From: a virus
Virus record (IMG/VR): IMGVR_UViG_3300044634_003809
Span: 1-61,511 of that record
Length of the DNA: 61,511 nt
Reading direction: 5' to 3' (one strand)
The notes beneath the pieces are model-generated. The model had not been told where the DNA came from. It saw only the letters and a list, made by a program, of their open reading frames with translations, and made no database searches. Made by a program: the position numbers and the translations under genes. Numbering within the stretch: the first letter of the stretch is position 1; every line of letters starts with the position of its first letter. Shown here in pieces: positions 39,401-55,925 of this stretch.

Positions 39401-42400
39401 ATCAAGGTACTCAAGGTGTTCAAGGAGATCAAGGTACTCAAGGTACTACTGGTCCAGTAGCAGGTTCTGCAAATCAAATTGTTTATAAAGATGGTTCAAA
39501 TAATCCTGCCGGATCTAATAATTTAACTTTTGATGGTTCCAATCTTTATGTTGGTGGTAATATCACAATTGGTGGTACTACAGCGTTTATTGCTGTTAAT
39601 GAATTAGTAGTTAAAGATAAAGATATTGTACTTGGTATTAATACAGATTCTTTTGGTAATGATATCTCTACAGATACAACAGCAAGTAGTGGTGGTATTG
39701 CTATTGCATCGACTGAAGGAACTCCATTAATTAGTATGAACTCTGGTGGAGAAATAACACCAGATACCTATAAGCAATTGATGTGGTTTAAGTCCGGTAG
39801 TTGTACAGGACTCAATACTGATGCTTGGATATTCAATTATGGTGTTGGTATTGGTACAACCATAATAAGTAACGGTGTAAGACTTGCTGCAGGTGCTATT
39901 AATGTCTTAGATAATAAATTAAACGTAAATGGCGATATTGATTTTAGTGGAACATTCTATCAGAATGGAAGTCCCTTTGTAGCATCAAGATGGTCTGCTG
40001 GAACTGGGAATAATATTTACCGATTAAATGGTAATGTTGGTATTGCAACCACAGATCCAACAGATTCCTTGGATGTAAATGGAAATATAAGAGTTCGTTC
40101 TGGACTTAAAGATTATTATGGAAATGTAGGTACTGCCGGTTCAATTTTAGTTTCAACTGGTGTTGGAGTTTCTTGGGCCACTGCATTTGATGCTGGACTT
40201 CAAGGAACTCAAGGTGTTCAAGGTGTTCAAGGACTTCAGGGAACTCAAGGAACTCAAGGACTTCAAGGAACTCAAGGACTTCAGGGAACTCAAGGAACTC
40301 AAGGAACTCAAGGTGTTCAAGGAACTCAAGGTGTTCAAGGAGATCAGGGTGTTCAGGGGACTCAAGGTAACCAAGGTGTTCAGGGACTTCAAGGAACTCA
40401 AGGACTTCAGGGCACTCAAGGATTACAAGGTAACCAAGGACTAAGCAACCAAGGTGTTCAAGGAACTCAAGGACTTCAGGGAACTCAAGGAACTCAAGGA
40501 CTTCAGGGAACTCAAGGAACTCAAGGATCTCAAGGACTTCAGGGAACCCAAGGACTTCAGGGAACCCAAGGAACCCAAGGACTTCAGGGAACCCAAGGAA
40601 CTCAAGGAGTTGGTACTCAAGGTAGCCAAGGTGTTCAGGGACTTCAGGGAACTCAAGGACTTCAAGGCAATCAAGGACTTCAAGGCACTCAAGGTACTCA
40701 AGGTGTTTTGGGTGCTCAGGGAACTCAAGGCACTCAAGGTATTCAAGGTATTTTGGGTGCTCAGGGAACTCAAGGAACTCAAGGAAGACAGGGGACACAA
40801 GGAACTCAAGGTGTTCTGGGAATTCAAGGATCTCAGGGTACTCAAGGTAATCAAGGACCTCAGGGAACTCAAGGAACTCAAGGAACTCAAGGTAATCAAG
40901 GACCTCAGGGAACTCAAGGAACTCAAGGTAATCAAGGACTTCAGGGCACTCAAGGAACTCAAGGTAATCAAGGACCTCAGGGTACTCAAGGAACTCAAGG
41001 AGTTGGATCTCAAGGTCTTCAAGGTACTCAAGGTACTCAAGGAAGACAAGGAACTCAAGGAGTTGGATCTCAAGGAACACAAGGTGTTCAAGGTATCGTA
41101 GGTCCAGTAGCAGGATCTGCCAATCAGATTGTTTATAAGGACGGTTCAAATAATCCTACAGGTTCTAACAGTCTTACATATACCGGAACAGTATCTGGTG
41201 TTGGTACTGTGGGAATCGGTACTATTATTGATATTGTTCATTATGATACTTTAAATTCGGGTACTCTTTCGTTTGAAGGTTCTGCAGGACAACTCTTTAG
41301 TATTACAAACAATTTAACAACTGGAAGTATCTTTAGTGTAAATGATGTTTCAGGTATTCCAAGTATTGATGTAGATGCAAATGGTACTGTTGAACTGGCA
41401 CCTTTTGGTGGCAATGTTGGTGTTGGTCTTACAAATCCAACAAATACGTTCCATATTTCTGGTTCTCCTGGTACAATAGTGAGAATTGATGGCGGCGCTG
41501 CTGGAACAGGAACAAGAGATATTTTTATCAGTGAATTTAATACAACGGCATATGGTGGTATTATACGTTATGATAGTACTGCAGATTTATTTACTTTTGG
41601 AACTGTAGAAAATTCTACGTTCCAATATGCATTAAATGTTGGAAGAAGTACTGGAAATGTTTCTATAGGAAATAGTACTGTAGGATCCACATTTAAATTA
41701 GATGTATTTGGAAATATTCGTTTAGGTAGTAACGTATCTGGTGCGACTGGAACACCTGCATATTTAAGTTTAGGTCAAAGTTTTTCTAGTGGTTCTGCAA
41801 GATCAAATTGCAAAATTCGTCTTTATGATAATGGTGCCGATGTTTATGGGTTTAGTGTTGGTTCTGCAGGTGATGTTCAATACCATTCAACAACAACTCA
41901 CCAATTTTATAATAGTGATGTAGCAACTTTATCGGTAAATGGTACTGCACCATCTTATAAAGGAAATACAATCTGGCACGCAGGTAACGATGGTTCTGGA
42001 AGTAGTTTAGATGCTGATTTACTTGATGGAAATGATAGTTCTTATTTCTTAAATACTAGTACGCCTGGTCAATCCAAGACCGGACAATTATGGGCTTCTT
42101 ATGGAAGCACTTCAATTGGAGGTTATAGTTGGGTTGATGCTGCATTCACTACAAACTCTATTGAAATTGTCAATAATAATGGAACGGTAACTAATTTATC
42201 ACCAACTCTTGCATTCCACAGATACGGAAGTGGTGGTCCGCAGTTTAGATTAGACCCCACAGGAACAAATGTTTTATATCTAGAATCTGCAAATGCGAAT
42301 AGTGCAAGAAATCCAAATTCCCAAGGAAATACATATTTTGCTTCATTAAGTTTAACTAGTTCAGATACAAATGGAATATATGTAAATACAAACAAAGTAT

Positions 42401-45400
42401 GGCACGCTGGTAATGATGGTTCTGGAAGTGGTCTTGATGCTGATTTACTTGATGGTCTTAATTCGGCAACAGCAAACACGGTATCCACTATAGTTGCCCG
42501 TGATGCTTCTGGTAACTTTAGTGCTGGTACTATAACAGCAGGTTCTTTTGTAAAATCCGGTGGAACCTCAACACAATTCTTAAAGGCAGATGGATCTGTT
42601 GATTCCAATACTTATATTACATCAGGATCTATTGGAAATGGTACTTTAACTCTTAATGTTTCTGGTACTGGTTTAAGTGGTTCTCAAACATTTACTGCTA
42701 ACCAAAGTAGTAATGCAACATTTACAGTAACCTCTAATGCTACTTCAGCGAATACGGTATCCACTATAGTTGCTCGTGATGCTTCTGGTAACTTTAGTGC
42801 TGGTACTATTACTGCTGCATTAAGTGGTAATGCAACAACAGCATCATCAACTCCAGGTTGTACTTTTTCAAATGATGCAACAAATCGTGCTGATATCACT
42901 ACAAGAGTGGATAGTGGTTTTTATGAGCACGATACTGCAACAACTGGAGAAGGTTGGCCATTAACCTCTAATACCTGGGCACATTTGCTTGCTTGTACGC
43001 ATAGTAATGATGCAAATTATTACTCAATGCAGATTTCCGCGAGTTTTTACAATAATAGCGACTTATTTTATAGATCGACAAATGGAAGTGGAACTACTGC
43101 CTGGACTAGAATTTGGAATGCAACAAATGATGGTTCTGGTAGTGGTCTTGATGCTGATTTACTTGATGGTCTTAATGCAACAACAGCAAACACTGGTTCT
43201 ACTATTGTTTCTAGAGACTCTTCTGGTAACTTTAGTGCTGGTACTATTACTGCTACGTTAAGTGGTTCTGCATCATCATTAGCCCTTTCTAGTGCTACGA
43301 TTTCTTCAAGTAGTTGGGCTGGTGGTAGTGGATATCACGGTTATACTTATAGTGGTGGTAATTTTAGATTTGGTTTTTCCTCAACTTCTGGAGTTGTTGA
43401 TGTTTATGCTGATGGTAATTTTTACGCTACTGATAGTTCTCATTTAGTATGGCACGCTGGTAATGATGGTTCTGGTAGTGGTCTTGATGCTGATTTACTT
43501 GATGGTCTTAATAGTAGTTCATTTGTGAGAACAGATTCTCGTTCCGCAATATCAATAAATTCAAGGGGAACTTCTTATACAGCATCAAGTTTAGAGTTAT
43601 ATACAGGAGACAATACTCCCCCTGGTTTATCTTTTCATAGGGGTGGATACTCTGCTGTAAATTTATATGAAAGTAATGGATATCTATATCAAGAGAGATG
43701 GGCGGGGGGAGGTGGATTAATTTGGCACTCTGGTAATGATGGTTCTGGAAGTGGTCTTGATGCTGATTTACTTGATGGTATTAATAGTTCTGCTTTCTTG
43801 TATGATAAAGGAAATTCTCCCACAGATTTAAATACCGCTGGTATGGGTATATGGAGAATTAATACCGGACAAACAAATCAACCTTCTGGAACAGACTATG
43901 GAACTTTAGTTAGTATTGACAATTCATCAGATACTGGTTTTCAATTGGCGTCAGATTATACATCAACTAATTTTTATTGGAGGTCTGGAAATTCATCTAT
44001 TTATGGTGGTGGCGGATCTTTTGGAAGTTGGAGAAAAATATGGCATGATGGTAATGATGGTTCTGGAAGTGGTTTAGATGCTGATTTACTTGATGGTTAT
44101 AATACTTCAACTTCAGGAAGCGCAAATACCATTGCTCTAAGAGAAGGTAACGGCCATCTTTATATGAATTATGGTTTTGCTAATTATTTTAATTCTCCAG
44201 ATGACGTAAGTGCCGGAACCATTACTTATATTATGGCAAAGTTTGGTGATAATTATTATCGTTCTGCCACTGCCGCAAAGGTCGCTTCCTTTATTAGTGG
44301 TCAGACTATGAATATTAGTGGTAATGCTACTACAGCAAGTAGTAGTCCGACTTTATCAGCACTTTCAAACTATGTCTGGAGTGCTTCCACTCTTCCGACA
44401 TCTTTTGCGAGTGGTATTCAATGCTCTTTTGTATCTTCTACTGAAGGATTCCAAAATTATGGGTCCGTAATGACAATGAGAACATACGCTGGAGGTGGCG
44501 GGTCTTTACAACTTTATGTTCCATACTCACCAACTTATGGCGGGAACGGAATGCAAGTCAGATTTGGCAATTATGATGTTTCCTCTGGAAATTCTTGGAC
44601 CTCTTGGAAAACTGTATGGGATTCCGGTAATGATGGTTCTGGAAGTGGTTTAGATGCTGATTTACTTGATGGATTGCAATTGCATACTGGAAGAAATAAT
44701 GAGGCAAATAAAGTCGTAAGAACTGACGGTAGTGGATACTTACAGACCGGGTATATCAACTCATCTAATGGAAATGAAGGTAATAACAGTAGTCCAGCAA
44801 GGGTATGGGGTACAAATGGTAGTGATGATTATTTAAGAACTTATTTGACAAGTGCTCTTTCTGCGGGTTATTCAATAAACTATACTCAAGGTTTCAACTC
44901 CAACTGGAACACTGATTTCCAAGCAGCACCTGCAGGAAGTACAATTCTTCGTGGTGATACATCCACTGGAAGTTCTACTGGTGGTCCTGGCGGAACTTGG
45001 TGGTTCCAACAAAATATGCGACACACAAACTCTAGTAATTTCTGGGGCGTTCAGGTTGCTTGGGGATGGGAAGATAATGCAAACCGATTAAGAACAAGAA
45101 ATGTTCAAAATGGTAGTTATGGTGGTTGGGTTAATTACTGGAATGATAATAATGATGGAGCAGGTAGTGGTCTTGATGCTGATTTATTGGATGGATTTAA
45201 CTCCGACAGATTCTTGAGATCCTTAGGTCATCCTGGATATGGTGATTGGAACACCTTTGGAAATGCTCAACAAACCGTTTATGAGATATTACAAGAGAAC
45301 TTTAACGCTGGGACTAACACCGGAAGTTCTAATTTTCCGACTAATAGGGCATATAATTACGGAACATTGGTAAATTTTGGTGCTAATAGTTCCGCAAGAG

Positions 45401-46647
45401 CACAGGTCTATATTAGCCATGCTGGTAATGACTTAATCTTTAGAGGCGGTTGGGGTACTGCAAGTTGGCAAACTTGGAATAGGGTCTGGACAGACATCAA
45501 TGATGGTTCTGGTAGTGGTTTAGATGCTGACTTACTTGACGGTATCAATTCTGGAAGTTTTTACAGATCTGATGCTAGTAATACTGCATTTGGTGGTGTA
45601 TTTACGTTCAGGTCTGCAGATTCAGTTGATGTTACGAATACTGGTCAAATTAATGGTCTTCAAGTATATCAAAATAATGCAGGAGCAGATGCATTAATGT
45701 CGTTCCACGTAGGAGGAGATTTCGCCTGTCACTTTGGATTAAGTGGCGGTGTAAATGATCTGGTTGTTGGTGGATGGAGTTTTGGTGCAAATGAATATAG
45801 AGTTTGGCACGCAGGAAATGATGGTTCTGGAACTGGATTAGATGCTGATTTATGGGATGGATATCAACTTTCAACAAGAACAAACTGGTCTTCTAATAGT
45901 GCCGGTAATATTGTCGTTGGTCAGTTGTCTTGGAAAAACTATGGTAATAATCACACTATATTTGATGCTTCTAACGGCACTTCTCCAGATGGTGGGGCAG
46001 TCAGCAATACAGATTCTCAAGTTGCTTGGACTGGAACATATCCAACTCTTATGGGGTGGAACGGTGCAAATACATATGGAGTAAGAGTTGATAGTGCTAG
46101 AGTTTCTGATAGCACATCATCAGTATCTTCATCTGTTTTGGGTAGTGGAACCGCAAATAGTACAACATATCTTCGTGGGGATAGAACTTGGCAAACTATT
46201 AGTGGAGGGGCAACTCTTTCAAATGATACGACTACAAATGCCACTTGGTATCCAACATTAAGTTCTGCGACTTCAGGAACATATTCAACAGCATATGTTT
46301 CAAATACTAAACTAACATTCAACCCATCTACAGGAACATTATCTGCAACAGTCTTTACATCACTATCTGACAAATCTCAAAAAACTAACATAAGATCTAT
46401 TGAAAATGCACTTGATATCACTAAACAACTTAATGGTGTTAGATTTAATTGGATAGATAATAATAAACCTTCAGTTGGTGTAATTGCACAAGAAGTTGAA
46501 AATGTATTTTCAGAACTTGTTGAAGAAGTTAATGAACATAAAACTGTAAATTATAATGGATTAGTTGCATTATTGATAGAAGCAATCAAAGAGCAACAAG
46601 AACAAATAAATACTTTAAGAAAAGAAATTCAAAATTTAAAAAAATGA
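36496..46647 (+). CDS. Giant collagen-like tail fibre with C-terminal S74 chaperone domain
   Basis: 3383-aa fibre, the largest gene here. Seen: short N-terminal region (1-53); collagen-like Gly-X-Gln shaft about 54-982; a globular segment about 983-1233 ('GPVAGSANQIVYKDGSNNPA'); a second collagen-like shaft about 1234-1534; then a beta region with ten copies of 'W(H)..(G)NDGSGSGLDADLLDG' from about 1825 to 3115. It ends in a peptidase S74 intramolecular chaperone (about 3285-3383): 'SDKSQKTNIRSI', 'LNGVRFNWI', 'VGVIAQEVENVF', 'VNYNGLVALLIEAIKEQQEQ'. In this family Ser and Lys of SDxxxK cut the chaperone off after the trimer folds, so the mature tip would end just before that Ser (known chemistry applied here). 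The start overlaps the stop of the 110-aa adaptor. Confidence 0.85.
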   Translation: MPSVSLGSTGYNIVVGSSSQISVATTSLHQEINKVTVGYSPSLKATRESNSLQGVQGIQGVFGGQGSQGTQGFIGDQGTQGLQGSLSNFQGTQGVQGFSGEYGAQGTQGNQGLQGNQGTQGTQGVQGNQGTQGSQGAQGTQGNQGIQGTQGAQGLSNQGTQGAQGLSNQGTQGAQGLSNQGNQGVQGNQGVQGNQGIQGTQGNQGTQGNQGSQGLSNQGTQGTQGFSGEYGAQGTQGNQGNQGVQGDQGVQGVQGTQGVQGDQGVQGVQGLSNQGTQGTQGVQGIQGTQGNQGVQGFQGTQGNQGVQGFQGTQGNQGVQGTQGVQGFSGEYGAQGNQGTQGSLGTLGLTGSQGTQGIQGFQGVQGFQGNQGIQGNQGIQGLSNQGTQGIQGIQGIQGIQGIQGVQGIQGIQGLSNQGTQGTQGTQGTQGFSGEYGAQGNQGLQGNQGTQGTQGNQGLQGTQGTQGTQGTQGNQGLQGNQGLQGTQGNQGLQGNQGVQGVQGLSNQGSQGAQGLSNQGIQGTQGLQGDQGTQGTQGIQGVQGLSNQGTQGSQGSQGTQGRQGTQGAQGLSNQGTQGTQGLQGDQGTQGTQGIQGVQGLSNQGTQGNQGNQGSQGSQGLQGNRGNQGTQGVQGNQGTQGLQGLSNQGTQGAQGLSNQGTQGPQGLSNQGTQGVQGLSNQGTQGPQGTQGLQGNQGPQGTQGVGSQGLQGNQGNQGNQGVQGLSNQGTQGVQGLSNQGIQGNQGLQGLSNQGVQGIQGSLSNFQGVQGDQGVQGLRGARGDFQGTQGAQGTEGEQGTQGNQGTQGVQGLSNQGTQGTQGTQGTQGNQGVQGLQGTQGNQGVQGLQGTQGNQGTQGNQGVQGTQGTQGTQGNQGTQGTQGNQGVQGLQGTQGTQGTQGNQGVQGLQGTQGNQGTQGTQGNQGVQGLQGLQGIQGVQGLQGTQGTQGTQGNQGVQGLQGTQGVQGDQGVQGLSNQGTQGVQGDQGTQGTTGPVAGSANQIVYKDGSNNPAGSNNLTFDGSNLYVGGNITIGGTTAFIAVNELVVKDKDIVLGINTDSFGNDISTDTTASSGGIAIASTEGTPLISMNSGGEITPDTYKQLMWFKSGSCTGLNTDAWIFNYGVGIGTTIISNGVRLAAGAINVLDNKLNVNGDIDFSGTFYQNGSPFVASRWSAGTGNNIYRLNGNVGIATTDPTDSLDVNGNIRVRSGLKDYYGNVGTAGSILVSTGVGVSWATAFDAGLQGTQGVQGVQGLQGTQGTQGLQGTQGLQGTQGTQGTQGVQGTQGVQGDQGVQGTQGNQGVQGLQGTQGLQGTQGLQGNQGLSNQGVQGTQGLQGTQGTQGLQGTQGTQGSQGLQGTQGLQGTQGTQGLQGTQGTQGVGTQGSQGVQGLQGTQGLQGNQGLQGTQGTQGVLGAQGTQGTQGIQGILGAQGTQGTQGRQGTQGTQGVLGIQGSQGTQGNQGPQGTQGTQGTQGNQGPQGTQGTQGNQGLQGTQGTQGNQGPQGTQGTQGVGSQGLQGTQGTQGRQGTQGVGSQGTQGVQGIVGPVAGSANQIVYKDGSNNPTGSNSLTYTGTVSGVGTVGIGTIIDIVHYDTLNSGTLSFEGSAGQLFSITNNLTTGSIFSVNDVSGIPSIDVDANGTVELAPFGGNVGVGLTNPTNTFHISGSPGTIVRIDGGAAGTGTRDIFISEFNTTAYGGIIRYDSTADLFTFGTVENSTFQYALNVGRSTGNVSIGNSTVGSTFKLDVFGNIRLGSNVSGATGTPAYLSLGQSFSSGSARSNCKIRLYDNGADVYGFSVGSAGDVQYHSTTTHQFYNSDVATLSVNGTAPSYKGNTIWHAGNDGSGSSLDADLLDGNDSSYFLNTSTPGQSKTGQLWASYGSTSIGGYSWVDAAFTTNSIEIVNNNGTVTNLSPTLAFHRYGSGGPQFRLDPTGTNVLYLESANANSARNPNSQGNTYFASLSLTSSDTNGIYVNTNKVWHAGNDGSGSGLDADLLDGLNSATANTVSTIVARDASGNFSAGTITAGSFVKSGGTSTQFLKADGSVDSNTYITSGSIGNGTLTLNVSGTGLSGSQTFTANQSSNATFTVTSNATSANTVSTIVARDASGNFSAGTITAALSGNATTASSTPGCTFSNDATNRADITTRVDSGFYEHDTATTGEGWPLTSNTWAHLLACTHSNDANYYSMQISASFYNNSDLFYRSTNGSGTTAWTRIWNATNDGSGSGLDADLLDGLNATTANTGSTIVSRDSSGNFSAGTITATLSGSASSLALSSATISSSSWAGGSGYHGYTYSGGNFRFGFSSTSGVVDVYADGNFYATDSSHLVWHAGNDGSGSGLDADLLDGLNSSSFVRTDSRSAISINSRGTSYTASSLELYTGDNTPPGLSFHRGGYSAVNLYESNGYLYQERWAGGGGLIWHSGNDGSGSGLDADLLDGINSSAFLYDKGNSPTDLNTAGMGIWRINTGQTNQPSGTDYGTLVSIDNSSDTGFQLASDYTSTNFYWRSGNSSIYGGGGSFGSWRKIWHDGNDGSGSGLDADLLDGYNTSTSGSANTIALREGNGHLYMNYGFANYFNSPDDVSAGTITYIMAKFGDNYYRSATAAKVASFISGQTMNISGNATTASSSPTLSALSNYVWSASTLPTSFASGIQCSFVSSTEGFQNYGSVMTMRTYAGGGGSLQLYVPYSPTYGGNGMQVRFGNYDVSSGNSWTSWKTVWDSGNDGSGSGLDADLLDGLQLHTGRNNEANKVVRTDGSGYLQTGYINSSNGNEGNNSSPARVWGTNGSDDYLRTYLTSALSAGYSINYTQGFNSNWNTDFQAAPAGSTILRGDTSTGSSTGGPGGTWWFQQNMRHTNSSNFWGVQVAWGWEDNANRLRTRNVQNGSYGGWVNYWNDNNDGAGSGLDADLLDGFNSDRFLRSLGHPGYGDWNTFGNAQQTVYEILQENFNAGTNTGSSNFPTNRAYNYGTLVNFGANSSARAQVYISHAGNDLIFRGGWGTASWQTWNRVWTDINDGSGSGLDADLLDGINSGSFYRSDASNTAFGGVFTFRSADSVDVTNTGQINGLQVYQNNAGADALMSFHVGGDFACHFGLSGGVNDLVVGGWSFGANEYRVWHAGNDGSGTGLDADLWDGYQLSTRTNWSSNSAGNIVVGQLSWKNYGNNHTIFDASNGTSPDGGAVSNTDSQVAWTGTYPTLMGWNGANTYGVRVDSARVSDSTSSVSSSVLGSGTANSTTYLRGDRTWQTISGGATLSNDTTTNATWYPTLSSATSGTYSTAYVSNTKLTFNPSTGTLSATVFTSLSDKSQKTNIRSIENALDITKQLNGVRFNWIDNNKPSVGVIAQEVENVFSELVEEVNEHKTVNYNGLVALLIEAIKEQQEQINTLRKEIQNLKK
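36652..39447 (+). repeat. Collagen-like coding repeat, block 1 of the giant fibre
   Basis: About 2.8 kb of CAA GGN NNN units (Gln-Gly-X), with TTAAGTAAT (Leu-Ser-Asn) interruptions and repeated larger blocks containing GGATTTAGTGG(A/T)GAATA(C/T)GGAGC (near 36783, 37170, 37470, 37782). Same unit as the repeat at 26176-27845. Confidence 0.9.
40198..41097 (+). repeat. Collagen-like coding repeat, block 2 of the giant fibre
   Basis: About 0.9 kb of the same Gln-Gly-X coding units. Each block is followed by a near-identical sequence, GGTCCAGTAGCAGG(T/A)TCTGC (39451 and 41101), encoding GPVAGSANQIVYKDGSNNP, so shaft plus following module appear to have been duplicated together. Confidence 0.9.
41965..45870 (+). 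repeat. Ten dispersed WHAGNDGSGSGLDADLLDG coding repeats
   Basis: A 19-residue unit encoded by TGGCACGCTGGTAATGATGG and variants recurs ten times between about 41970 and 45865, separated by 60-180 unrelated residues. The unit is common in phage fibre tips, where it probably forms a repeated beta-turn linking small domains. Confidence 0.85.
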
Positions 46648-46697
46648 TTAGTACTTACACGGATTCTGAAAAAATGATTATTACTTACGTAGTTTCC
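46638..46697 (+). repeat. 30-base tandem duplication at a start codon
   Basis: AAAAATGATTA(G/T)TACTTAC occurs with a 30-base period, around the ATGs at 46644 and 46674. The duplication added ten codons and created the ATGA overlap with the preceding fibre gene. Confidence 0.6.
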
Positions 46698-47177: not shown

Positions 47178-48389
47178 ATGTCTAGACCCAATCAGTTTTT
47201 ATCCCCAGAAGGTGATATAGAAGATTATTTTGTGGATGAATATTGGTTGATTGACCAGTGGGTTGGAGACCAATTGTGGGTTTGGGGGGCCGCATCAAGA
47301 TTATCTGGAAATGGAGCACTTGGAAACGGAGCAACAACAGGTAACATAAGCACTCCAATCACCACATTTGCCGGAGGAACCAACTGGAAACAAGTGGATG
47401 GTGGACTTGTTCAAACAGCAGCAATCAAAACTGATGGAACCTTATGGACTTGGGGTTATAATGTGCAAGGACAACTTGGAAACGCACAAGTAACCAATAG
47501 ATCTACTCCAGTCACCACATTTGCTGGAGGAACCAACTGGAAACAAGTTAGTTGTGGAGATACTCATACAGCAGCAATCAAAACTGATGGAACCTTATGG
47601 ACTTGGGGTCTTACGAATGATGGACGACTTGGAAACGGAATAACAACATTAGGTACCAGATCCACTCCAATCACCACATTTGTCGGGGGAAATAATTGGA
47701 AACAAGTTAGTTGTGGATCTGGTAATACATCAGCAATCAAGACTGATGGAACCTTATGGACTTGGGGTATTGGAACTAATGGACGACTTGGAAACGGAAT
47801 AACAACAGGCAATATATCCACTCCAATCACCACATTTGCCGGAGGAACAAACTGGAAACAAGTGAGTACTGGAAGATTTCATACAGCAGCAATCAAGACT
47901 GATGGAACCTTATGGATTTGGGGTCAGGGAACTGTTGGGCAACTGGGAAATGCACAAATAATCAATATATCCACACCAATCACCACATTTTCTGGAGGAA
48001 CTAACTGGAAACAAGTTAATTGTGGAGAACTTCATACAGCAGCAATCAAGACTGATGGAACTTTATGGATTTGGGGTTCTGGAGATAATGGACAACTGGG
48101 AAATGCACAAATAATCAATATATCCACACCAATCACCACATTTTCTGGAGGAACCAACTGGAAACAAGTGAGTGGTGGAAGTGGTCATGCAGCAGCAATC
48201 AAGACTAATGGAACCTTATGGACTTGGGGTCTTGGAAATTATGGACGACTTGGAAACGCACAAACAACCAACGTATCCACTCCAGTCACCACATTTGCTG
48301 GAGGAACCAACTGGAAACAAGTGAGTGGTGGAAATGTTCATACAGCAGCAGTTGAAGCAGGTATCAACGCCGAGTACCCACTCTCATAA
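47178..48389 (+). CDS. RCC1-like seven-bladed propeller protein 1
   Basis: 403-aa protein made almost entirely of RCC1 repeats. Seen: a 33-residue N-terminal adaptor ('NQFLSPEGDIEDYFVDEYW'), then seven 'LWxWG' cores spaced about 50 residues apart, each followed by 'G.LGN......(S)TP.TTF.GG.NWKQV..G....AAIKTDGT'. Seven is the number in a closed RCC1 propeller, so the fold should be complete. In the cell RCC1 binds chromatin, but in a phage next to fibre genes such a propeller is more likely a surface-binding adhesin (inference). The blades are nearly identical in DNA. Two homologues lie at 49076 and 53931 with different N-terminal adaptors. No strong ribosome-binding site. Confidence 0.85.
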   Translation: MSRPNQFLSPEGDIEDYFVDEYWLIDQWVGDQLWVWGAASRLSGNGALGNGATTGNISTPITTFAGGTNWKQVDGGLVQTAAIKTDGTLWTWGYNVQGQLGNAQVTNRSTPVTTFAGGTNWKQVSCGDTHTAAIKTDGTLWTWGLTNDGRLGNGITTLGTRSTPITTFVGGNNWKQVSCGSGNTSAIKTDGTLWTWGIGTNGRLGNGITTGNISTPITTFAGGTNWKQVSTGRFHTAAIKTDGTLWIWGQGTVGQLGNAQIINISTPITTFSGGTNWKQVNCGELHTAAIKTDGTLWIWGSGDNGQLGNAQIINISTPITTFSGGTNWKQVSGGSGHAAAIKTNGTLWTWGLGNYGRLGNAQTTNVSTPVTTFAGGTNWKQVSGGNVHTAAVEAGINAEYPLS

Positions 48390-48392
48390 ATA
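48385..48392 (+). promoter_or_regulatory. Putative late promoter CATAAATA upstream of the DUF4376 gene
   Basis: CATAAATA overlaps the TAA stop of RCC1 gene 1 and lies 13 bases before the ATG at 48406. Confidence 0.4.
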
Positions 48393-48405
48393 CTCAAAAA
48401 CGATA

Positions 48406-49074
48406 ATGGAAATAGCACTCATTCATAACAACTCATTAGAACTTGGTCCTTTCGGGATGAATGTTCATTATATCAATCAAGAGTTAGAAGAACTTGAAGT
48501 AGAAGAGAGAGTATCTCCTCAAAGTTTTTCTGAACTTCCTATTCATTTTAGTGATGGACTTACTCATCTACTTCCAACAGAAAGAGTCATTCCAGAGAAC
48601 GACCCAAAGTATCAAAATGTAGGAAACTTTACTTGGGAAATTGTTGAAGAAAATGGTGTTTCCACTAAAGTAGTATTCACTTATCCAATTATTGATAAGA
48701 CTTTAGAAGAAGTCAAGGTAATTCGCAAGCAAGAAGTTGCTCCAGCAAGAAGACAGAAAGAAAATACTATTACTACTCTTACGGTCAATAATACTGAAGT
48801 AGAAGTATCAACCTCAAGAGAAGAGAGATTGATGCTTGCAAGTAAACTTTCAGCATCTCCTGGGCCTCATAACTTTAAGTTCCAGAATACTTGGTTAGAG
48901 ATTACTACAGAAGAACTTCAATATATTGTAAGTGAAGTTGATAAAGTAGTTCAAGAAGCATTTGACTGGGAATTAGCAAAACTTCAAGAGATTGATGCTT
49001 GTGAGACGATTGATGAGGTTTATGATGTTGTGATTGTAGAGCAACCAGAACCCCCTCAATTACCAGTAGAGTGA
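48406..49074 (+). CDS. DUF4376-domain protein (tail fibre-associated)
   Basis: 222-aa protein. I take the ATG at 48406; the open frame extends 81 bases upstream into the RCC1 gene, but the region before 48406 has no conserved content. Seen: N-terminal 'MEIALIHNNSLELGPFGMNV' and 'PERVIPENDPKYQNVGNFTW'-like stretch (residues ~60-85), then a C-terminal DUF4376-type domain (about 110-210): 'RRQKENTITTLTVNNTEVEV', 'SREERLMLASKLS', 'WLEITTEELQYIVSEVDKVV', 'QEAFDWELAKLQEIDACETI'. DUF4376 is common in phage tail fibre and fibre-assembly proteins. It is flanked by two RCC1 genes and stops one base before the second, so it could assist attachment or folding of those propellers (inference). Confidence 0.7.
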   Translation: MEIALIHNNSLELGPFGMNVHYINQELEELEVEERVSPQSFSELPIHFSDGLTHLLPTERVIPENDPKYQNVGNFTWEIVEENGVSTKVVFTYPIIDKTLEEVKVIRKQEVAPARRQKENTITTLTVNNTEVEVSTSREERLMLASKLSASPGPHNFKFQNTWLEITTEELQYIVSEVDKVVQEAFDWELAKLQEIDACETIDEVYDVVIVEQPEPPQLPVE

Positions 49075-49075
49075 A

Positions 49076-50317
49076 ATGAGTAGAGTAGAAACAACCACTA
49101 ACTTTAGAGATAGTTTTGGTACTGATTTGGGTAGAAAGTTGGTCACCAAAGACTATCTAATCAGTGTCTATCCTGAAATTGGAGATAAGATTGGTATTCC
49201 TCCAGAGTTGTGGACTTGGGGTGATGGACAATTTGGAAGACTTGGAAACGCTGTAATAACAGGTACCAGAAGTGCTCCAAGTACAACATTTGCTGGAGGA
49301 ACTAACTGGAAACAAGTGAGTGCTTTAAAACGTCATACAGCAGCAATCAAAACTGATGGAACCTTATGGACTTGGGGTTATGCAGAGTCTGGAAGACTTG
49401 GAAACGCTGTAATAACAGGTAACAGAAGTACTCCAGTCACCACATTTTCCGGCGGAACCAATTGGAGACAAGTGAGTTGTGGAGGTTATCATACAGCAGC
49501 AATCAAAACTGATGGAACCTTATGGGGTTGGGGTGCTAATAGTAATGGACAACTTGGAACTAATGATTCAGGTAACAGAAGTACTCCAGTCACCACATTT
49601 TCCGGCGGAACCAATTGGAGACAAGTGAGTTGTGGAGATAATCATACAGCAGCAATCAAAACTGACGGAACTTTGTGGATTTGGGGCAGGGGAAATAATG
49701 CAAGACTTGGAAACGCTCTAACAACAGGTAATAGAAGCACTCCAATCACCACATTTGCTGGAGGAACTAACTGGAAACAAGTGAGTTGTGGAGGTTATCA
49801 GACAGCAGCAATCAAAACTGATGGAACCTTATGGACTTGGGGTTATGGGAGTAAATCGCGACTTGGAAACGGAGCAATATCAGGTAACAGAAGTACTCCC
49901 GTCACTACATTCGCTGGAGGAACTAATTGGAAACAAGTGAGTTGTAATCTTAATAATACAGCAGCAATCAAAACTGATGGAACATTATGGACTTGGGGTG
50001 ATGGAAGTTATGGACGACTTGGAAACACACAAACAACCGATAGATCCACTCCAATCACAACATTTGCTGGAGGAACTAACTGGAAACAAGTTGCTTGTGG
50101 ATATCGACATACAGCAGCAATCAAAACTGATGGAACTTTATGGACTTGGGGGTATGAAAATAATGGAGCACTTGGAAATAATAGAATAGACCCTTTTTTT
50201 CCAGCATCCATAGTTAGTCCAATTACCACATTTGCCGGAGGAACCGACTGGAAACAAGTAACTTGTGCATATCAACATACAGCAGCAATCAAATCAGTAG
50301 ACTTTTCACCATTCTAA
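49076..50317 (+). CDS. RCC1-like seven-bladed propeller protein 2
   Basis: 413-aa RCC1 protein. The N-terminal adaptor (about 1-40) contains 'RVETTTNFRDSFGTDLGRKL' and 'VTKDYLISVYPEI', an element I have seen at the start of other cyanophage structural proteins, which supports virion attachment. Seven 'LWxWG' cores follow (LWTWG, LWTWG, LWGWG, LWIWG, LWTWG, LWTWG, LWTWG), each with 'TAAIKTDGTLW' at the blade junction; the last blade ends in a short 'SVDFSPF'. Probable adhesin. The ATG comes one base after the previous stop, so it is coupled to the DUF4376 gene. Confidence 0.85.
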   Translation: MSRVETTTNFRDSFGTDLGRKLVTKDYLISVYPEIGDKIGIPPELWTWGDGQFGRLGNAVITGTRSAPSTTFAGGTNWKQVSALKRHTAAIKTDGTLWTWGYAESGRLGNAVITGNRSTPVTTFSGGTNWRQVSCGGYHTAAIKTDGTLWGWGANSNGQLGTNDSGNRSTPVTTFSGGTNWRQVSCGDNHTAAIKTDGTLWIWGRGNNARLGNALTTGNRSTPITTFAGGTNWKQVSCGGYQTAAIKTDGTLWTWGYGSKSRLGNGAISGNRSTPVTTFAGGTNWKQVSCNLNNTAAIKTDGTLWTWGDGSYGRLGNTQTTDRSTPITTFAGGTNWKQVACGYRHTAAIKTDGTLWTWGYENNGALGNNRIDPFFPASIVSPITTFAGGTDWKQVTCAYQHTAAIKSVDFSPF

Positions 50318-50323
50318 TAAATA
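50316..50323 (+). promoter_or_regulatory. Putative late promoter AATAAATA upstream of the modification cassette
   Basis: AATAAATA overlaps the end of RCC1 gene 2 and lies 24 bases before the ATG at 50348. It would be the entry promoter of the glycosyltransferase operon, placing it in the late class with the fibres. Confidence 0.45.
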
Positions 50324-50347
50324 CGTAAAATACATTCAATATTCTTT

Positions 50348-51688
50348 ATGAACCCTCTTGAGTTGGTCACAAAAACTCTACACTCCTTCAACGAAAAAGA
50401 ACTTACCTCACAAATTCTACAAGCATTTGGTAAGAGAGCAGAAACTTTTGAGCAACATAATGATGTTGCCAAGATTTTCTTTGAAATTAAAGATTTCTCA
50501 AATGCTATTACTTATGGTGAGAAAGCACTTAAGTTAGCAAAGTCAAAAGAAGAACTTTATATTACTACAAAAAACCTCATAAACGCATACAACCAAAATA
50601 ATTATCCAGAGAAAGCAATAACTCAAATCTCAAAAATTAAATCACAAAATCCCCAAGATACTGAACTTCTTCTTGAGGAAACTTTTTCATACTCTGCTCT
50701 GAATCAAAAAGAAAAATCAGAAAAACTTTTATTTGACCTAATTAAAAAACCACTACCAGAAGAGATTGAAAGAAAGGCATATCACAATCTTTCTGGACAT
50801 TATTTCCGTAAAGATGATATTCGTACAGGACTTCAACACTTTCTCAAAGCAGGAGAAGTGGAGGCATATAAGAATAAAAAGTATCCAAACTATGAGAAGT
50901 GGGATGGAACAGTAACTCCAGGTAGAACGATTATTATTGATAGTCAGTGTGGTGCTGGTGATGAAGTGATTCACGTTCGGTTTATGAAGCACCTAAAAGA
51001 ACTTGGAATGAATCCAATCTGGACAACAACCAGAAAAGATATTCAAGAACTCTTTAACTATAATGGTTTCCGTACTGAACTTGTATGGGATAATCCAGAG
51101 TTTCCAAAAGATTCTTGTTGGGTTTATGCTCTTGCTCTTCCTTATTATCTCAATCTCAAAGTAGAAGATTTGGGGCAAACTCCTTATCTCAAACCACTAC
51201 CACAGAAAGAAGAGCAATATTCTTATCTACAAGAAGATAATAACTATAAGATTGGTACATTCTGGAACTCTGGTTCTGGATTTGAACAAGCACATTTCCG
51301 TTCAATTGATGCTGATGATTTATTCAAAGTTCTATCAAAAACTAATTCATCATTATATTCACTTCAACTACCAGACCAACAACCACCAGAGTATTATGAG
51401 GTAAATACTTTTGATATTCCAAATCGTGATTTTACGGATACATTTTCACTTGTATCTCAAATGGACTTGGTGATTACTTCTTGTACTTCTATTGCTCACA
51501 TAGCAGCATCAATGGGTAAAGAAGTTTGTGTGTTTGTACCAATTATGGAATATTATGTCTGGACTAGTAGTACAGGAAAGTCTTGGTGGTATGGGGATAA
51601 TGTTCATTTGTTTAAACAAAAGAAACCGAGAAATTGGGACGAACCTTTGAAACAATTGAAGGAGTTTCTAAATGATAGAGGAATATAA
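50348..51688 (+). CDS. TPR-glycosyltransferase (GT9/GT-B-like)
   Basis: 446-aa protein. Seen: N-terminal TPR-like helical repeats (about 30-190) with 'DVAKIFFEIKDFSNAITYGE' and 'NLINAYNQNNYPEKAITQ', then a GT-B-type glycosyltransferase part: 'SQCGAGDEVIHVRFMKHLKE' (about 199-218, matching 'GD.v...R....lk..g' of heptosyltransferase-like GTs), and 'MDLVITSCTSIAHIAASMGK', 'EVCVFVP', then a 'WW' and Phe-Lys run, which is the sugar-nucleotide-binding C-terminal motif seen in TPR-glycosyltransferases. Such proteins transfer sugars to proteins or polysaccharides in bacteria. Donor and acceptor are unknown. Overlaps the next gene by 17 bases; late-type box upstream. Confidence 0.75.
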   Translation: MNPLELVTKTLHSFNEKELTSQILQAFGKRAETFEQHNDVAKIFFEIKDFSNAITYGEKALKLAKSKEELYITTKNLINAYNQNNYPEKAITQISKIKSQNPQDTELLLEETFSYSALNQKEKSEKLLFDLIKKPLPEEIERKAYHNLSGHYFRKDDIRTGLQHFLKAGEVEAYKNKKYPNYEKWDGTVTPGRTIIIDSQCGAGDEVIHVRFMKHLKELGMNPIWTTTRKDIQELFNYNGFRTELVWDNPEFPKDSCWVYALALPYYLNLKVEDLGQTPYLKPLPQKEEQYSYLQEDNNYKIGTFWNSGSGFEQAHFRSIDADDLFKVLSKTNSSLYSLQLPDQQPPEYYEVNTFDIPNRDFTDTFSLVSQMDLVITSCTSIAHIAASMGKEVCVFVPIMEYYVWTSSTGKSWWYGDNVHLFKQKKPRNWDEPLKQLKEFLNDRGI

Positions 51689-52130
51689 CCTTTCTTTTCT
51701 CAATCTAAATATCATTAAGAACAAACTTCTTGAAATAGAAACCAGTCCTCACGGACTTGTGACTAAAGGTGTTTCTACTTATAATCACGGAATGCCCACT
51801 CTAATGTATCCAGAACTCACTGGATTAAAGAATGTTATTAAACAATATGTTAGACTATATTGTAATAAGTATGAGATTCCACCTTTAAAGTTTATCAATA
51901 GTTGGTTTAATATTTCACAACCAGGAAATAAACTTAAAGCACATAAGCACGAAGAAAGTATTGTAAGTGGTGCATTTTATATTTCTGGAAAAACCCCACT
52001 TATTTTTCCAGATACAAAAGTAAATCCATATCCAGGACTTTTAGTTGTCTTCTCAAGTGATTTGGTTCATTATACAGAAGAAGAAACAGAAGAAAGAATT
52101 ATTATTAGTTTTAATACAGATTACCTATGA
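51672..52130 (+). CDS. 2OG-Fe(II) oxygenase family protein
   Basis: 152-aa protein of the phage-type 2-oxoglutarate/Fe(II) dioxygenase family (2OG-FeII_Oxy_5-like). Seen: 'FINSWFNISQPGNKLKAHKH' then 'EESIVSGAFYI', 'PGLLVVFSSDLVH', and 'ERIIISFNTDYL'. Likely metal ligands are H91/H93 and E94 or nearby acid with H133; R142 is the probable 2OG-binding Arg. Family members hydroxylate or otherwise oxidise proteins or nucleic acids; many cyanophages carry one of unknown substrate. GGAG ribosome-binding site; overlaps neighbours on both sides (17 bases upstream, 4-base ATGA downstream), so it is made with the glycosyltransferases. Substrate may be the fibre or a glycan (inference). Confidence 0.8.
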   Translation: MIEEYNLSFLNLNIIKNKLLEIETSPHGLVTKGVSTYNHGMPTLMYPELTGLKNVIKQYVRLYCNKYEIPPLKFINSWFNISQPGNKLKAHKHEESIVSGAFYISGKTPLIFPDTKVNPYPGLLVVFSSDLVHYTEEETEERIIISFNTDYL

Positions 52131-52915
52131 AATTTTTATTTTTGGTTGGTTCAGCACTTAAACACTTCCAAGAAGAAAAGTTTAGTGCTTATGATGAAGA
52201 ACAAAGATTTGAGCAAACACTAAAAACAATTGAATGTATAAGAGAAAAAGTTCCTAACTCTTATGTCGTTTTATTTGAGTGTTCTTCTAAACCAATTGAT
52301 GAGAAGCAAAAAGAGGTACTCAAAGAAAAAGCAGATTTGTTTTTAGAGTTTTATAATGAACCAGTACTCAAACAGATTTATGAAAATCTAGAATCAAGAC
52401 CAGAATTGATTACTTATGGTAAATCATTATTAGAAACCAGAGGATTATTGAATACTCTTTATGTAATCAAGAAGCATAATTTGTTTAGTGATAGCCAAAG
52501 AGTATTCAAACTGACTGGAAGATACTTACTGAATGAGTATTTTGATATTAAAGATTATGAATCAAAATTTCTTGAGGAAAAATATGTAATCAAAAAGTAT
52601 GATTATCTTCCACAAGAGGCAGAGAATTTTGATGAGAAAGAACTTGAGAATGTTTATGCCTATCTTTATGGTGCTCAAGGTATGATGGTAACTGGTCTAT
52701 GGTCTTTTGACCGTATTCTGTTTAATGAGATTGTTGAGTCACTTGAAAAAGCATTTGTTTATATGGAAAAGATGCTTCAATTTACAGCAGGTACTGATGT
52801 TGAGCATTCTCTTTATCGGTTCTTGAACAAAAAAAATGTGATTAGTATTCCAAATCTTGGTCTTACAACGATTAAGGGAATGAGTGGTGAGAATGGAGCA
52901 AGTTATAATATATGA
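52127..52915 (+). CDS. Unknown protein in glycosyltransferase cassette (GT-A-like candidate)
   Basis: 262-aa soluble protein, not firmly recognised. Seen: N-terminal 'FLFLVGSALKHFQEEKFSAY' and 'VVLFECSSKPIDEKQKEVLK', an alpha/beta start; 'RVFKLTGRYLLNEYFDIKDY' (about 125-144) resembles the '.k.sGRY.l' motif of some capsule-type glycosyltransferases; 'AQGMMVTGLWSFDRIL' and a His-containing 'GTDVEHSLYRFL' near the end. No clear DxD. Linked by ATGA overlaps on both sides (52127-52130 and 52912-52915), so it belongs to the coupled operon. A sugar-modifying role is inferred from context. Confidence 0.6.
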   Translation: MKFLFLVGSALKHFQEEKFSAYDEEQRFEQTLKTIECIREKVPNSYVVLFECSSKPIDEKQKEVLKEKADLFLEFYNEPVLKQIYENLESRPELITYGKSLLETRGLLNTLYVIKKHNLFSDSQRVFKLTGRYLLNEYFDIKDYESKFLEEKYVIKKYDYLPQEAENFDEKELENVYAYLYGAQGMMVTGLWSFDRILFNEIVESLEKAFVYMEKMLQFTAGTDVEHSLYRFLNKKNVISIPNLGLTTIKGMSGENGASYNI

Positions 52916-53565
52916 AACTAGCAATCTTTTATCATATTGGGCAGATTGGTATTGGTGCTTTTGTTTATATTAATCAGGTTCATAGACTTTATACTTCAGG
53001 ATTAATCAAAGAAGCATCTTATATTCACTTTGGAGTGAATGGAAATCAAGAACTCTTTAATATTCCTAATAATACAAAGGTTGTTTATAATCAAAATCAT
53101 AAGGAAGAAACAGAAACTTTAATGTCTTTACGTGATTTTTGTAAACAAAATCCAGATTATAAAGTTCTTTATTTTCATACTAAAGGAGTATCAAAAGAAA
53201 GTATGAATGCTGAAAGTTGGAGATTGATGATGGAATATTTTGTGATTGATAGATGGAAAGAATGTGTAGAATACTTGAATGATTATGATGTTGTTGGAAG
53301 TAATCTCAAAGTTTTGGGACCAACCACTTGGAGTGATGGTAGACAATCGTGGGAGAAAGCAGGAACTCAACATTTTGTAGGAAACTTTTGGTGGGCAAAT
53401 GCTTCTTATGTAAATACTTTAAGTGATGAGTTTTTGGAAAGTGACTTTAGATTAGACCGTGAGTTCTGGATTGGTACTGGAGATGGTAAAATGAAATCTT
53501 TATATCAACCAGAAGATTACGAACCTTATACATACTTTTACCGGGAGAAGGATTATGTTTCGTGA
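52912..53565 (+). CDS. Glycosyltransferase-like protein (GT-A type)
   Basis: 217-aa protein. Seen: 'KLAIFYHIGQIGIGAFVYIN' start, 'DYKVLYFHTKGVSKESMNAE' (about 82-101), 'YLNDYDVVGSNLKVLGPTTW', and a strongly conserved-looking 'HFVGNFWWANASYVNTLSD' followed by 'LDREFWIGTGDGKMKSLYQP'. The 'YFHTKG ... H..GNFWWA.. Y ... L... R ... E.WI' pattern occurs in a family of glycan-synthesis proteins in bacteria; I judge it a glycosyltransferase, with acceptor and donor unknown. Overlaps the previous gene (ATGA) and the next by 11 bases. Confidence 0.6.
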   Translation: MKLAIFYHIGQIGIGAFVYINQVHRLYTSGLIKEASYIHFGVNGNQELFNIPNNTKVVYNQNHKEETETLMSLRDFCKQNPDYKVLYFHTKGVSKESMNAESWRLMMEYFVIDRWKECVEYLNDYDVVGSNLKVLGPTTWSDGRQSWEKAGTQHFVGNFWWANASYVNTLSDEFLESDFRLDREFWIGTGDGKMKSLYQPEDYEPYTYFYREKDYVS

Positions 53566-53908
53566 ATGTGGAGAATGCACTGCATGTTGCAGTTGGTTAG
53601 TTGCTAATATCTATGGATGGGAAATTGGTGGCGGAAAGTCTTGTAAATTTTTAGAGTGTAATGGTTGTGGTGTCCATAATGCAAGAGCAGAGGTTTGCAG
53701 AAACTATCAGTGTGCTTGGACGCAACATTTACTTCCAGAAGAAATGAGACCTGATAAATCTAATATAATAGTCTCTGTAGAGAATAATCCAAATGGGCAA
53801 CATTTAAAAGTATTGCCAATAAATAATAAAGAAATAAAACCTGAAGTTAAACAATACCTTCAAAAGTGGAGTGAGAGTATGAACACTCCTGTGATTTTTA
53901 TAGAATAA
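53555..53908 (+). CDS. Cys-rich YkgJ-like metal/cluster-binding protein
   Basis: 117-aa protein with nine cysteines: C5-x2-C8-x2-C11-C12 at the N terminus ('ECGECTACC'), then C30, C35-x2-C38 and C48-x4-C53 ('VCRNYQCAW'). This matches the YkgJ / UPF0153-type zinc- or iron-chelating domain (C..C..CC ... C ... C..F/Y.C). The C-terminal half is not Cys-rich and lacks other motifs. Family members are thought to bind Zn or an Fe-S cluster; substrate unknown. Ribosome-binding site AAGGA. It overlaps the upstream glycosyltransferase gene by 11 bases. An associated Fe-dependent 2OG oxygenase lies three genes earlier, so a link to metal handling is possible (inference). Confidence 0.7.
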   Translation: MFRECGECTACCSWLVANIYGWEIGGGKSCKFLECNGCGVHNARAEVCRNYQCAWTQHLLPEEMRPDKSNIIVSVENNPNGQHLKVLPINNKEIKPEVKQYLQKWSESMNTPVIFIE

Positions 53909-53930
53909 AAGTCGTTTCCAAGAACTCAAA

Positions 53931-55118
53931 ATGCCAGCCTTTTATAACTTTACAGAAAACGGACTTGTTTATAGTTTTGATGACATTTTTGTTCCTGCTG
54001 ATTTTTTTCGTGAAGGGAATTTGTGGACTTGGGGTTCTGCAATTAGTATTCAACTTGGTGATGGTTCGACAACAGGTAATAGAAGTACTCCAATAACTAC
54101 ATTTGCTGGGGGAGCAAATTGGAAATCTGTCCAAGATTCTTTTAACACATCAACTGCGGCAGCAATTAAAACTGATGGAACCTTATGGATTTGGGGAAGT
54201 CAATTTAACGGACAATTAGGAATTAATAACACTGGCAATAGAAGCACTCCAGTTACAACATTCGCCGGAGGAACCAATTGGAAACAAATTACTTTTGGTT
54301 CTGCTCATGCCGTAGCAATTAAAACCGATGGAACCTTATGGACTTGGGGATTTGGTGGAAGACTTGGAAACGGAACAACAACTGGCAACATAAGCACGCC
54401 AGTCACCACATTTGCTGGAGGAACCAACTGGAGACAAGTAAGTTGTGGTGATGCCCACACAGTAGCAATCAAAACTGATGGAACTTTATGGGCTTGGGGT
54501 TCTGGTGGACAAGGAAAACTTGGGAATGGTTTAGTTTCAGCCGTAGCAGTTATATCAACTCCAATCACAACATTTGCTGGAGGAACCAACTGGAGACAAG
54601 TTGCATGTTCAAATAATATGACAGCAGCAATCAAAACTGATGGAACTTTATGGGTTTGGGGTGATGCTGCAAATTCATTGCTTGGAAACGGATTAACAAC
54701 AGGTAGCATAAGTACTCCAATCACAACATTTGCTGGAGGAACCAACTGGAAACAAGTTTCCAGCGGAGGCAATCACACAGCAGCAATCAAAACTGATGGG
54801 ACCTTATGGACTTGGGGTTCTGGTGCTAATGCCATTGGAAATGGAAGCTTTCCTACTAGTACTCCAGTCACCACATTTGCTGGAGGAAATAACTGGAAAC
54901 AAGTAAGTTGCGCGAATGCAATTGCTACAGCAGCAATCAAGGCTGATGGAACCTTATGGACATGGGGTGCTGGTAATAATGGAATACTTGGAGAAAGATC
55001 TACATATGGTACTAAAAGCACTCCAGTCACCACATTTGCTGGAGGAACCAATTGGAGACGGGTCGGTTCTTCTGGCAATGGTTTTGCTGCACTCACATAC
55101 GATGACCCTGTGATATAA
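53931..55118 (+). CDS. RCC1-like seven-bladed propeller protein 3
   Basis: 395-aa RCC1 protein lying inside the enzyme cassette. N-terminal adaptor (about 1-31) 'YNFTENGLVYSFDDIFVPAD' differs from the other two. Seven 'LWxWG' cores (LWTWG, LWIWG, LWTWG, LWAWG, LWVWG, LWTWG, LWTWG) form a complete propeller. Blade three lacks a few residues ('GFGGRLGNGTTTGN') and blade one has a longer insert ('VQDSFNTSTAAAIK'). The blade consensus is the same as in proteins 1 and 2, but the copies are more diverged from each other. Probable adhesin. The location breaks a run of enzyme genes with 22 and 24 base gaps. No ribosome-binding site of note. Confidence 0.85.
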   Translation: MPAFYNFTENGLVYSFDDIFVPADFFREGNLWTWGSAISIQLGDGSTTGNRSTPITTFAGGANWKSVQDSFNTSTAAAIKTDGTLWIWGSQFNGQLGINNTGNRSTPVTTFAGGTNWKQITFGSAHAVAIKTDGTLWTWGFGGRLGNGTTTGNISTPVTTFAGGTNWRQVSCGDAHTVAIKTDGTLWAWGSGGQGKLGNGLVSAVAVISTPITTFAGGTNWRQVACSNNMTAAIKTDGTLWVWGDAANSLLGNGLTTGSISTPITTFAGGTNWKQVSSGGNHTAAIKTDGTLWTWGSGANAIGNGSFPTSTPVTTFAGGNNWKQVSCANAIATAAIKADGTLWTWGAGNNGILGERSTYGTKSTPVTTFAGGTNWRRVGSSGNGFAALTYDDPVI

Positions 55119-55142
55119 TACATAATAAGAAAGCAATAAACT

Positions 55143-55925
55143 ATGAAGACATTATATTTTCTTGGAGGACTTCCAAGAAGTGGTTCTACATTACTTGGGT
55201 CACTTCTCAATCAACATCCTGACATTTATGTATCACCAACATCTCCATTGGGTGATGTAGTCACTGATATTGAAAAGTCATTTAATACTTTAGATATTCA
55301 ATTTACCTTTGACCGTAAAGCAATATCTTATAATGTTTATAAGGCAGTTCTTGCTAACTTCTATAATCATATTCCAAAATCAACAATTCTAGATAAGCAT
55401 CGGTTTTGGGGAAAGAATCTTGATACAGTACAAATGTTTCTTTCGAACAAACCAAAGATTGTAGCAACTTATCGTTCTATTCCAGAAGTTCTTACATCTT
55501 ATATTTCTCTTATAGAACGGTCAAAGCACGAAGATAACTTTATTGATAATCATTTAAGAAAAGATAATCTTCCAATCACAAACAATAATCGTGCCGAATA
55601 TATTTGGAGATATTATGTTTCTCCATCTTATGAGAGTATGGTTTATGGACTTACAAAGTATCCAGATTGGGTTCATCTGGTAGAATACAATAGTCTCGTA
55701 GAAAATCCAGAAACAGAACTGAATAAAATCTATGAGTTTTTAGAGGTTCCTTCTCATACAAATGCCTTTGATAATATTGATAATGCTTGCGGAGAACAAA
55801 AGGATGATGCTTGGGGATTAAGAGGTCTTCACGATATTCGTCCAAATCTATCTAAAATCTCACAAAATCCTATTGATGTAATAGGAGAAGAAAATGTAAA
55901 ACTTTATTCCAAGTTTGATTTATGA
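55143..55925 (+). CDS. Sulfotransferase-family protein
   Basis: 260-aa PAPS-dependent sulfotransferase candidate. Seen: 5'-phosphosulfate loop 'GLPRSGSTLL' (about 9-18) with the classic 'RSGST', and a 3'-phosphate region 'ATYRSIPEVLTSYISL' (R111 and S119 as expected binding residues). 'DKHRFWGKNLDTV' and a C-terminal 'VEYNSLVENPETELNKIYEF' plus 'LEVP' (usual 'P...l..i..FL') also match the family. The enzyme would move sulfate from PAPS to a hydroxyl of a sugar or tyrosine. No signal peptide, so it acts in the host cytoplasm. Start of a new coupled run: its stop overlaps the next start (ATGA). Sulfotransferases are known but uncommon in phages. Confidence 0.8.
   Translation: MKTLYFLGGLPRSGSTLLGSLLNQHPDIYVSPTSPLGDVVTDIEKSFNTLDIQFTFDRKAISYNVYKAVLANFYNHIPKSTILDKHRFWGKNLDTVQMFLSNKPKIVATYRSIPEVLTSYISLIERSKHEDNFIDNHLRKDNLPITNNNRAEYIWRYYVSPSYESMVYGLTKYPDWVHLVEYNSLVENPETELNKIYEFLEVPSHTNAFDNIDNACGEQKDDAWGLRGLHDIRPNLSKISQNPIDVIGEENVKLYSKFDL

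Follow-up and report, generated by a model that had tools for sequence, protein, structure and literature searches.

Three RCC1 Propellers with Slot-Specific Adaptors as Putative Modular Recognition Heads of a Cyanophage-Type Myovirus

Three RCC1 proteins in a conserved gene cassette

The linear IMG/VR fragment IMGVR_UViG_3300044634_003809 (61,511 nt, the whole of which is referred to here as the window) carries T4-like tail, baseplate and fibre genes in its upstream part, followed by genes for three RCC1-repeat proteins, named A (open reading frame (ORF) 47178-48389), B (49076-50317) and C (53931-55118). A first-pass annotation made from the sequence alone had located these ORFs exactly as to coordinates, strand and frame, and had ascribed to each of them exactly seven LWxWG blade cores behind a short N-terminal adaptor of its own. 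Both claims were borne out. A regular-expression search through the six reading frames found seven LWxWG motifs in each of A, B and C and none elsewhere in the window, with the cores spaced by 50-56 residues, and the Pfam family RCC1 (PF00415) matched with E-values of 3e-61 (A), 8e-68 (B) and 1e-42 (C). Both PF00415 and PF25390 exceeded their curated cut-offs in all three, placing them among the RCC1-repeat proteins, and B and C are 64 and 61% identical to A, respectively. The residues ahead of the first blade number 32 in A, 44 in B and 30 in C and are clearly distinct in sequence. The blade repeats are also covered by ORFs on the minus strand (47564-47833, 54305-54772 and 54773-55210), which seem to mirror the repetitive codons and do not look like genes.

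The nearest named relative is S-SRM01 (Kyanoviridae, NC_070963), an isolated freshwater Synechococcus phage in which gp334-gp347 follow the gene order of the window, running from an S74 fibre gene through RCC1, DUF4376-like, RCC1, TPR and 2OG oxygenase genes and then, past other genes, to RCC1 and sulfotransferase genes. Its gp335, gp337 and gp344, annotated as 'regulator of chromosome condensation', have the same blade type as the proteins of the window, and their adaptors match those of A, B and C (Table 1). In contrast, the propellers are ~60-64% identical without slot orthology, gp335 has six blades, and the fibre shaft is a different one. The Pfam scores, together with this synteny, exclude a chance origin of the blade pattern.

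Further relatives came from two scans of viral contigs, which gave ~150 loci with duplicates among them (designated by L-numbers below; cassette counts are given after duplicate removal). The gene order S74 fibre, A, DUF4376-like gene, B, sugar-modification genes, C and sulfotransferase is conserved, and the cassette was found in S-SRM01 and in more than 100 IMG/VR loci. Of 41 distinct loci, 40 have an S74-like end at most 3.5 kb ahead of A, and a DUF4376-like gene separates A from B in 52 of 53. B precedes C in 51 of 51 loci, with a TPR gene between them in 43 of 51 loci, and a sulfotransferase gene follows within 1.5 kb in 48 of the 62 loci holding C.

Table 1. Features of the RCC1 cassette and adjoining genes (gp numbers refer to S-SRM01).
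Feature	Position	Strand	Evidence
Collagen-like (GxQ/GTQ-type repeat) fibre, 3383 aa, with S74-type chaperone end	36496..46647	+	Directly upstream of cassette; C-terminal region 66% identical to gp334
Adaptor A, 32 aa	47178..47273	+	Family alignment; consensus MPNQFLSPEGDLENYFVTEYWLIDQYVGD; 83% identity to gp335 N-terminus
Propeller A, seven RCC1 blades, predicted closed ring	47274..48386	+	Pfam, blade scan, structure model
DUF4376-like protein, 222 aa	48406..49074	+	PF14301 E 2e-4; phrog_10508 'tail fiber protein' E 1e-6
Adaptor B, 44 aa	49076..49207	+	Family alignment; consensus TTNFKDSNGVDLGxKLxTKDYLxSVYPxIxxQxxxxPE; 55% identity to gp337 N-terminus
Propeller B, seven RCC1 blades	49208..50314	+	Pfam, blade scan, 64% identity to A
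TPR-annotated protein	50348..51688	+	67% identity to gp338
2-oxoglutarate (2OG)-Fe(II) oxygenase	51672..52130	+	PF13759 E 3.5e-12; 84% identity to gp339
Adaptor C, 30 aa	53931..54020	+	Family alignment; consensus MPTFYNFTENGVVYSFDDVFVPADLFRxGN; 80% identity to gp344 N-terminus
Propeller C, seven RCC1 blades	54021..55115	+	Pfam, blade scan, 61% identity to A
Sulfotransferase after C	55143..55925	+	PF13469 E 1e-14

Propeller fold and slot-bound adaptors

Protein A was modelled with AlphaFold2 from an alignment of 67 relatives (predicted local distance difference test (pLDDT) 83.5; predicted template modelling score (pTM) 0.85; 28 strands). In the model, A is a closed seven-bladed ring of four-stranded blades, matching RLD2 (RLD, RCC1-like domain) of HERC2 with Z 53.9 and a root mean square deviation (rmsd) of 1.6 Å over 357 residues, UVR8, RPGR and human RCC1 with Z 49-50, and BLIP-II with Z 33. 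The strand order reads as a 2+2 closure of the ring, in which the blade begun by the last WKQV and HTAA strands is completed by the LWxWG and TPxTTF strands that come first in the protein; this explains why the last repeat lacks 'IKTDGT'. Since B and C have complete blade sets in addition to their identity to A, they should be closed seven-bladed rings of the same fold. The closed propeller put forward in the first-pass annotation, with structure prediction as its check, is thus found in the model for A and expected by homology for B and C. Adaptor A has a low pLDDT (52-63) in the model, suggesting that it is probably ordered only when bound to its partner.

By fold comparison, the same closed seven-bladed architecture is present in UVR8, the RLDs of HERC1 and HERC2, RPGR and RCC1 (rmsd 1.6-2.2 Å over ~340-360 residues, 23-28% identity), but these eukaryotic propellers have cellular functions and no phage adaptor. 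BLIP-II, a beta-lactamase inhibitor of Streptomyces and a seven-bladed protein-binding module of the RCC1/BLIP-II superfamily, differs in its shorter blades, its secretion and its single copy. A Foldseek search of viral models gave, as a lead only, an RCC1-like match on a protein of Pseudomonas phage PollyC whose N-terminus is of the T7 fibre type (19% identity, TM-score 0.62 to the query).

In the family alignments (40 sequences for adaptor A), the adaptors form three families, each bound to its own slot. Among 22 genomes with one seven-blade protein in each slot, adaptors were 57% identical within the same slot as compared to 28% between different slots. Propellers, on the other hand, were 68% identical between the slots of one genome, and 60% (same slot) or 59% (different slot) identical to those of other genomes. 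The adaptors are orthologous by slot, whereas the propellers are not. With the TPR-annotated protein between B and C as a yardstick of genome divergence, close pairs in which this flanking protein was 85-95% identical had propellers that were mostly 60-75% identical. At the variable positions, the comparison of the window with L014 gave 0.36 for equivalent blades and 0.37-0.38 for non-equivalent blades, as compared to 0.93 for the scaffold, and blade equivalence at these positions was lost even with a 93%-identical flanking TPR protein. The nearest relative of a blade lay within its own genome for 222 of 462 blades, when ~4% were expected.

Individual cases document exchange of propellers. The B propellers of L058 and L067 are 100% identical at the protein level on adaptors that are 78% identical, and the C propellers of L058 and L060 are 96% identical on adaptors of 73% identity, while L072 and L074 present the opposite case of identical A adaptors in whole proteins that are 77% identical. 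Moreover, L057 has a B propeller whose nearest matches are C propellers, those of L058 and L060 (84% protein identity; 90% DNA identity over 1058 bp for L058), although the adaptors are unrelated. No cross-slot tracts of at least 93% identity over at least 150 bp were found, and with the limits relaxed to 85% and at least 100 bp, 89 tracts appeared within genomes and 66 between genomes. In the window itself, the longest exact tract shared by A and B is 46 bp and no tract of at least 35 bp is shared with C, so that no recent wholesale gene conversion is seen inside this genome. Adaptor/propeller orthology and the exchange cases display a trait of phage receptor-binding proteins, in which the end used for attachment is conserved and the tip varies and can be exchanged. 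The earlier proposal of interchangeable receptor-binding heads therefore stands as far as exchangeable modules with one distinct adaptor each are concerned, as seen from the slot orthology and the B-to-C propeller of L057, whereas the rest of it is only plausible. Profile searches of all ORFs in the loci and consensus searches of a phage collection found no adaptors on non-RCC1 proteins, save for weak matches of the C profile to fibre-like stretches.

These adaptors also bear on the possibility that the propellers are soluble or secreted inhibitors, released during infection and blocking proteins or sugars of hosts or competitors in the manner of BLIP-II. The structural match to BLIP-II, the secretion of many bacterial relatives and the position of C among enzyme genes would agree with such a role. 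However, a free inhibitor would not need a strongly conserved slot adaptor, the cassette lies behind an S74 fibre gene, and RCC1 proteins have virion precedents in other phages; we regard this explanation as improbable.

The variable face and the number of blades

When variability was mapped on the model of A, the loops from LWxWG to TPxTTF and from WKQV to HTAA, which should lie on the same side of the ring given the up-down strand order, had a mean of 2.26 bits as compared to 0.62 bits for the opposite turns (p = 7e-4). With equal sampling (14 blades), the corresponding values were 1.53 and 0.32 bits for the phage and 1.58 and 1.25 bits for a secreted Hymenobacter RCC1 protein. In a codon comparison, the ratio of nonsynonymous to synonymous polymorphism (pN/pS) was ~1 on the variable face and ~0.1-0.2 in the scaffold, which is under strong purifying selection. 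Hypervariable loops over a constant scaffold could be taken as a sign that a diversity-generating retroelement acts on the propellers. However, no reverse transcriptase (RVT_1) was found in S-SRM01 or in five long IMG/VR relatives, whose records may be fragments, while the controls were detected, and the action of such an element seems highly improbable.

Seven blades were found in 127 of 157 distinct complete ORFs. Expanded ORFs occur at multiples of seven, with 14 (six ORFs), 21 (six), 28 (two) and 42 (one) blades, the exceptions having 13, 27, 29 (two near-identical ORFs) and 43 blades; clustering left 19 expanded proteins, 15 of which have a blade number exactly divisible by seven (p = 5e-10). 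In the 28-blade protein of L155, non-blade stretches follow blades 7, 14 and 21. Among the expanded exceptions are two with an inserted domain and a fusion protein that has a type-C adaptor in its interior, ahead of seven blades. Seven is not universal, since single rings with 5, 6 or 8 blades are also present in a few relatives, and locus pairs that are 96-99% identical over kilobases differ in the blade number of B or C (such as 5 versus 7, 6 versus 7 and 7 versus 28).

Some of the larger proteins have unusual layouts. L145:1656-5948 is a natural fusion of 20 blades, an internal type-C adaptor (SDLGDLLVPRDIFSEGG) and seven blades, and L038:6496-9975 is a contiguous 21-blade protein. Three multi-propeller proteins (L032:2273-9952, L105:1009-6204 and L117:589-5805) carry a domain of 150-200 residues (motif DDGFWxLxLPFNIxxNG) inside one blade.

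Genomic setting and putative role

In S-SRM01, gp334 lies directly upstream of gp335 and carries the related S74 end on an unrelated shaft, which points to exchange of the shafts and retention of the chaperone end. Two small ORFs (46644-46931 and 46979-47173, the latter matching the function-unassigned family phrog_20934) lie between the S74 fibre and A, where S-SRM01 has no annotated genes, and a tRNA-Thr (TGT) gene is located inside the fibre region (29495-29566). The DUF4376-like protein scored 22.4 bits with PF14301, below the curated cut-off of 25, and is not counted as a DUF4376 member; its model (pLDDT 89.9) had only weak prefoldin-like helical matches in the PDB (best Z 7.3), which were not interpretable. 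It is a candidate for an assembly factor or connector. An ORF that opens with GTG at 48325 overlaps the last part of A (48325-48405 of the window), and the DUF4376-like gene probably has its true start at the ATG at 48406, judged by S-SRM01 gp336.

Genes for 2OG-Fe(II) oxygenase, TPR, glycosyltransferase-like, sulfotransferase and methyltransferase proteins are interleaved with the propellers (50348-53908 and 55143-59527), and the enzymes possibly modify sugars of the virion or the host. The propellers might be a virion decoration without host recognition, binding the sugars of mucilage, of biofilm or of the phage's own glycosylated fibres and aiding residence near hosts. The adjoining glycosyltransferase, sulfotransferase, methyltransferase and 2OG oxygenase genes would agree with this, as would tandem growth to 42 blades, which suggests avidity. 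The near-total turnover of the variable face among close relatives, however, better fits an arms race with host receptors, and we consider mere decoration unlikely.

The first-pass annotation had described RCC1 propellers as mostly eukaryotic nuclear proteins with some secreted bacterial ones, a background that is incomplete in that many phages already carry annotated RCC1-like proteins, some of them in jumbo-phage virions. The jumbo coliphages phAPEC6, 121Q, PBECO4 and GAP32 (gp1) encode several RCC1-like paralogues of ~40 kDa per phage, each of about one ring, with ~19-22% identity in the structural search. Several ~40 kDa 'DNA condensation proteins' are listed for the phAPEC6 virion, where mass spectrometry detected them (Table 1 of PMC7247149), and GAP32 gp1 was likewise detected in the virion by mass spectrometry (cited in PMC5259590). 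The role given by these authors is DNA condensation or organisation, or none (PMC7247149, PMC5259590). An internal DNA-organising function, as suggested for phAPEC6 (PMC7247149), would also suit the annotation 'regulator of chromosome condensation', but the suggestion rests on the family name, and a single hypervariable face, a place behind a fibre gene and slot adaptors would be unexpected for a DNA packer. We therefore find this very unlikely for A, B and C. A text match to RCC1 in a paper on the RcGTA receptor turned out to be gene numbers.

Instead, we consider it probable that A, B and C serve a T4-like myovirus of the cyanophage type as modular recognition heads. Each head would dock through its conserved adaptor (A, B or C) at a virion site of its own, most likely in the tail-fibre or baseplate complex whose genes lie immediately upstream, and the adaptor would display a closed seven-bladed RCC1 propeller whose loops on one face would touch host surface molecules, probably glycans. 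Specificity may shift by loop substitution, by recombination between near-identical blades and by exchange of whole propellers, and only products made up of one or more full seven-blade rings would tend to persist. From the constant slot-specific ends, the fast exchangeable tips and the fibre gene upstream we infer a receptor-binding module, including the virion location, docking site and ligand of the heads. One-face hypervariability and the place behind the S74 fibre fit receptor binding, and this place is circumstantial as a sign of membership of the virion tail, fibre or baseplate. The modularity is well supported, and receptor binding is plausible but unproven.

Several observations weigh against recognition heads. 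Adaptor profiles run over all ORFs of the loci matched RCC1 proteins only and no known tail part, and a search of a phage collection with the adaptor consensus sequences matched S-SRM01 only. The text of the S-SRM01 paper (PMC8557907) mentions neither mass spectrometry nor RCC1, and C sits amid sugar-modification genes and not fibre genes. Furthermore, the control for face variability is a single bacterial protein, gp335 of S-SRM01 departs from seven blades, and some of the differences in blade number among metagenome contigs may stem from misassembly of the repeats.

With regard to how the proteins diversify, we give about an even chance to an RCC1-ring module on constant slot adaptors, in which blade recombination and loop substitution, with no retroelement involved, diversify the one exposed face, and in which selection keeps multiples of seven and moves rings between adaptors. 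New here are the three-slot cassette, the one-face hypervariability, the lost propeller orthology and the multiples-of-seven rule, the last of which would allow ring closure in repeat proteins to be studied as a natural experiment. Phage proteins that usually bear the label 'regulator of chromosome condensation' and are assigned to DNA metabolism gain a concrete, testable candidate function. If our interpretation is true, RCC1 propellers would join the few phage scaffolds with hypervariable binding faces, and the host-recognition determinants of abundant freshwater cyanophage relatives would be indicated.

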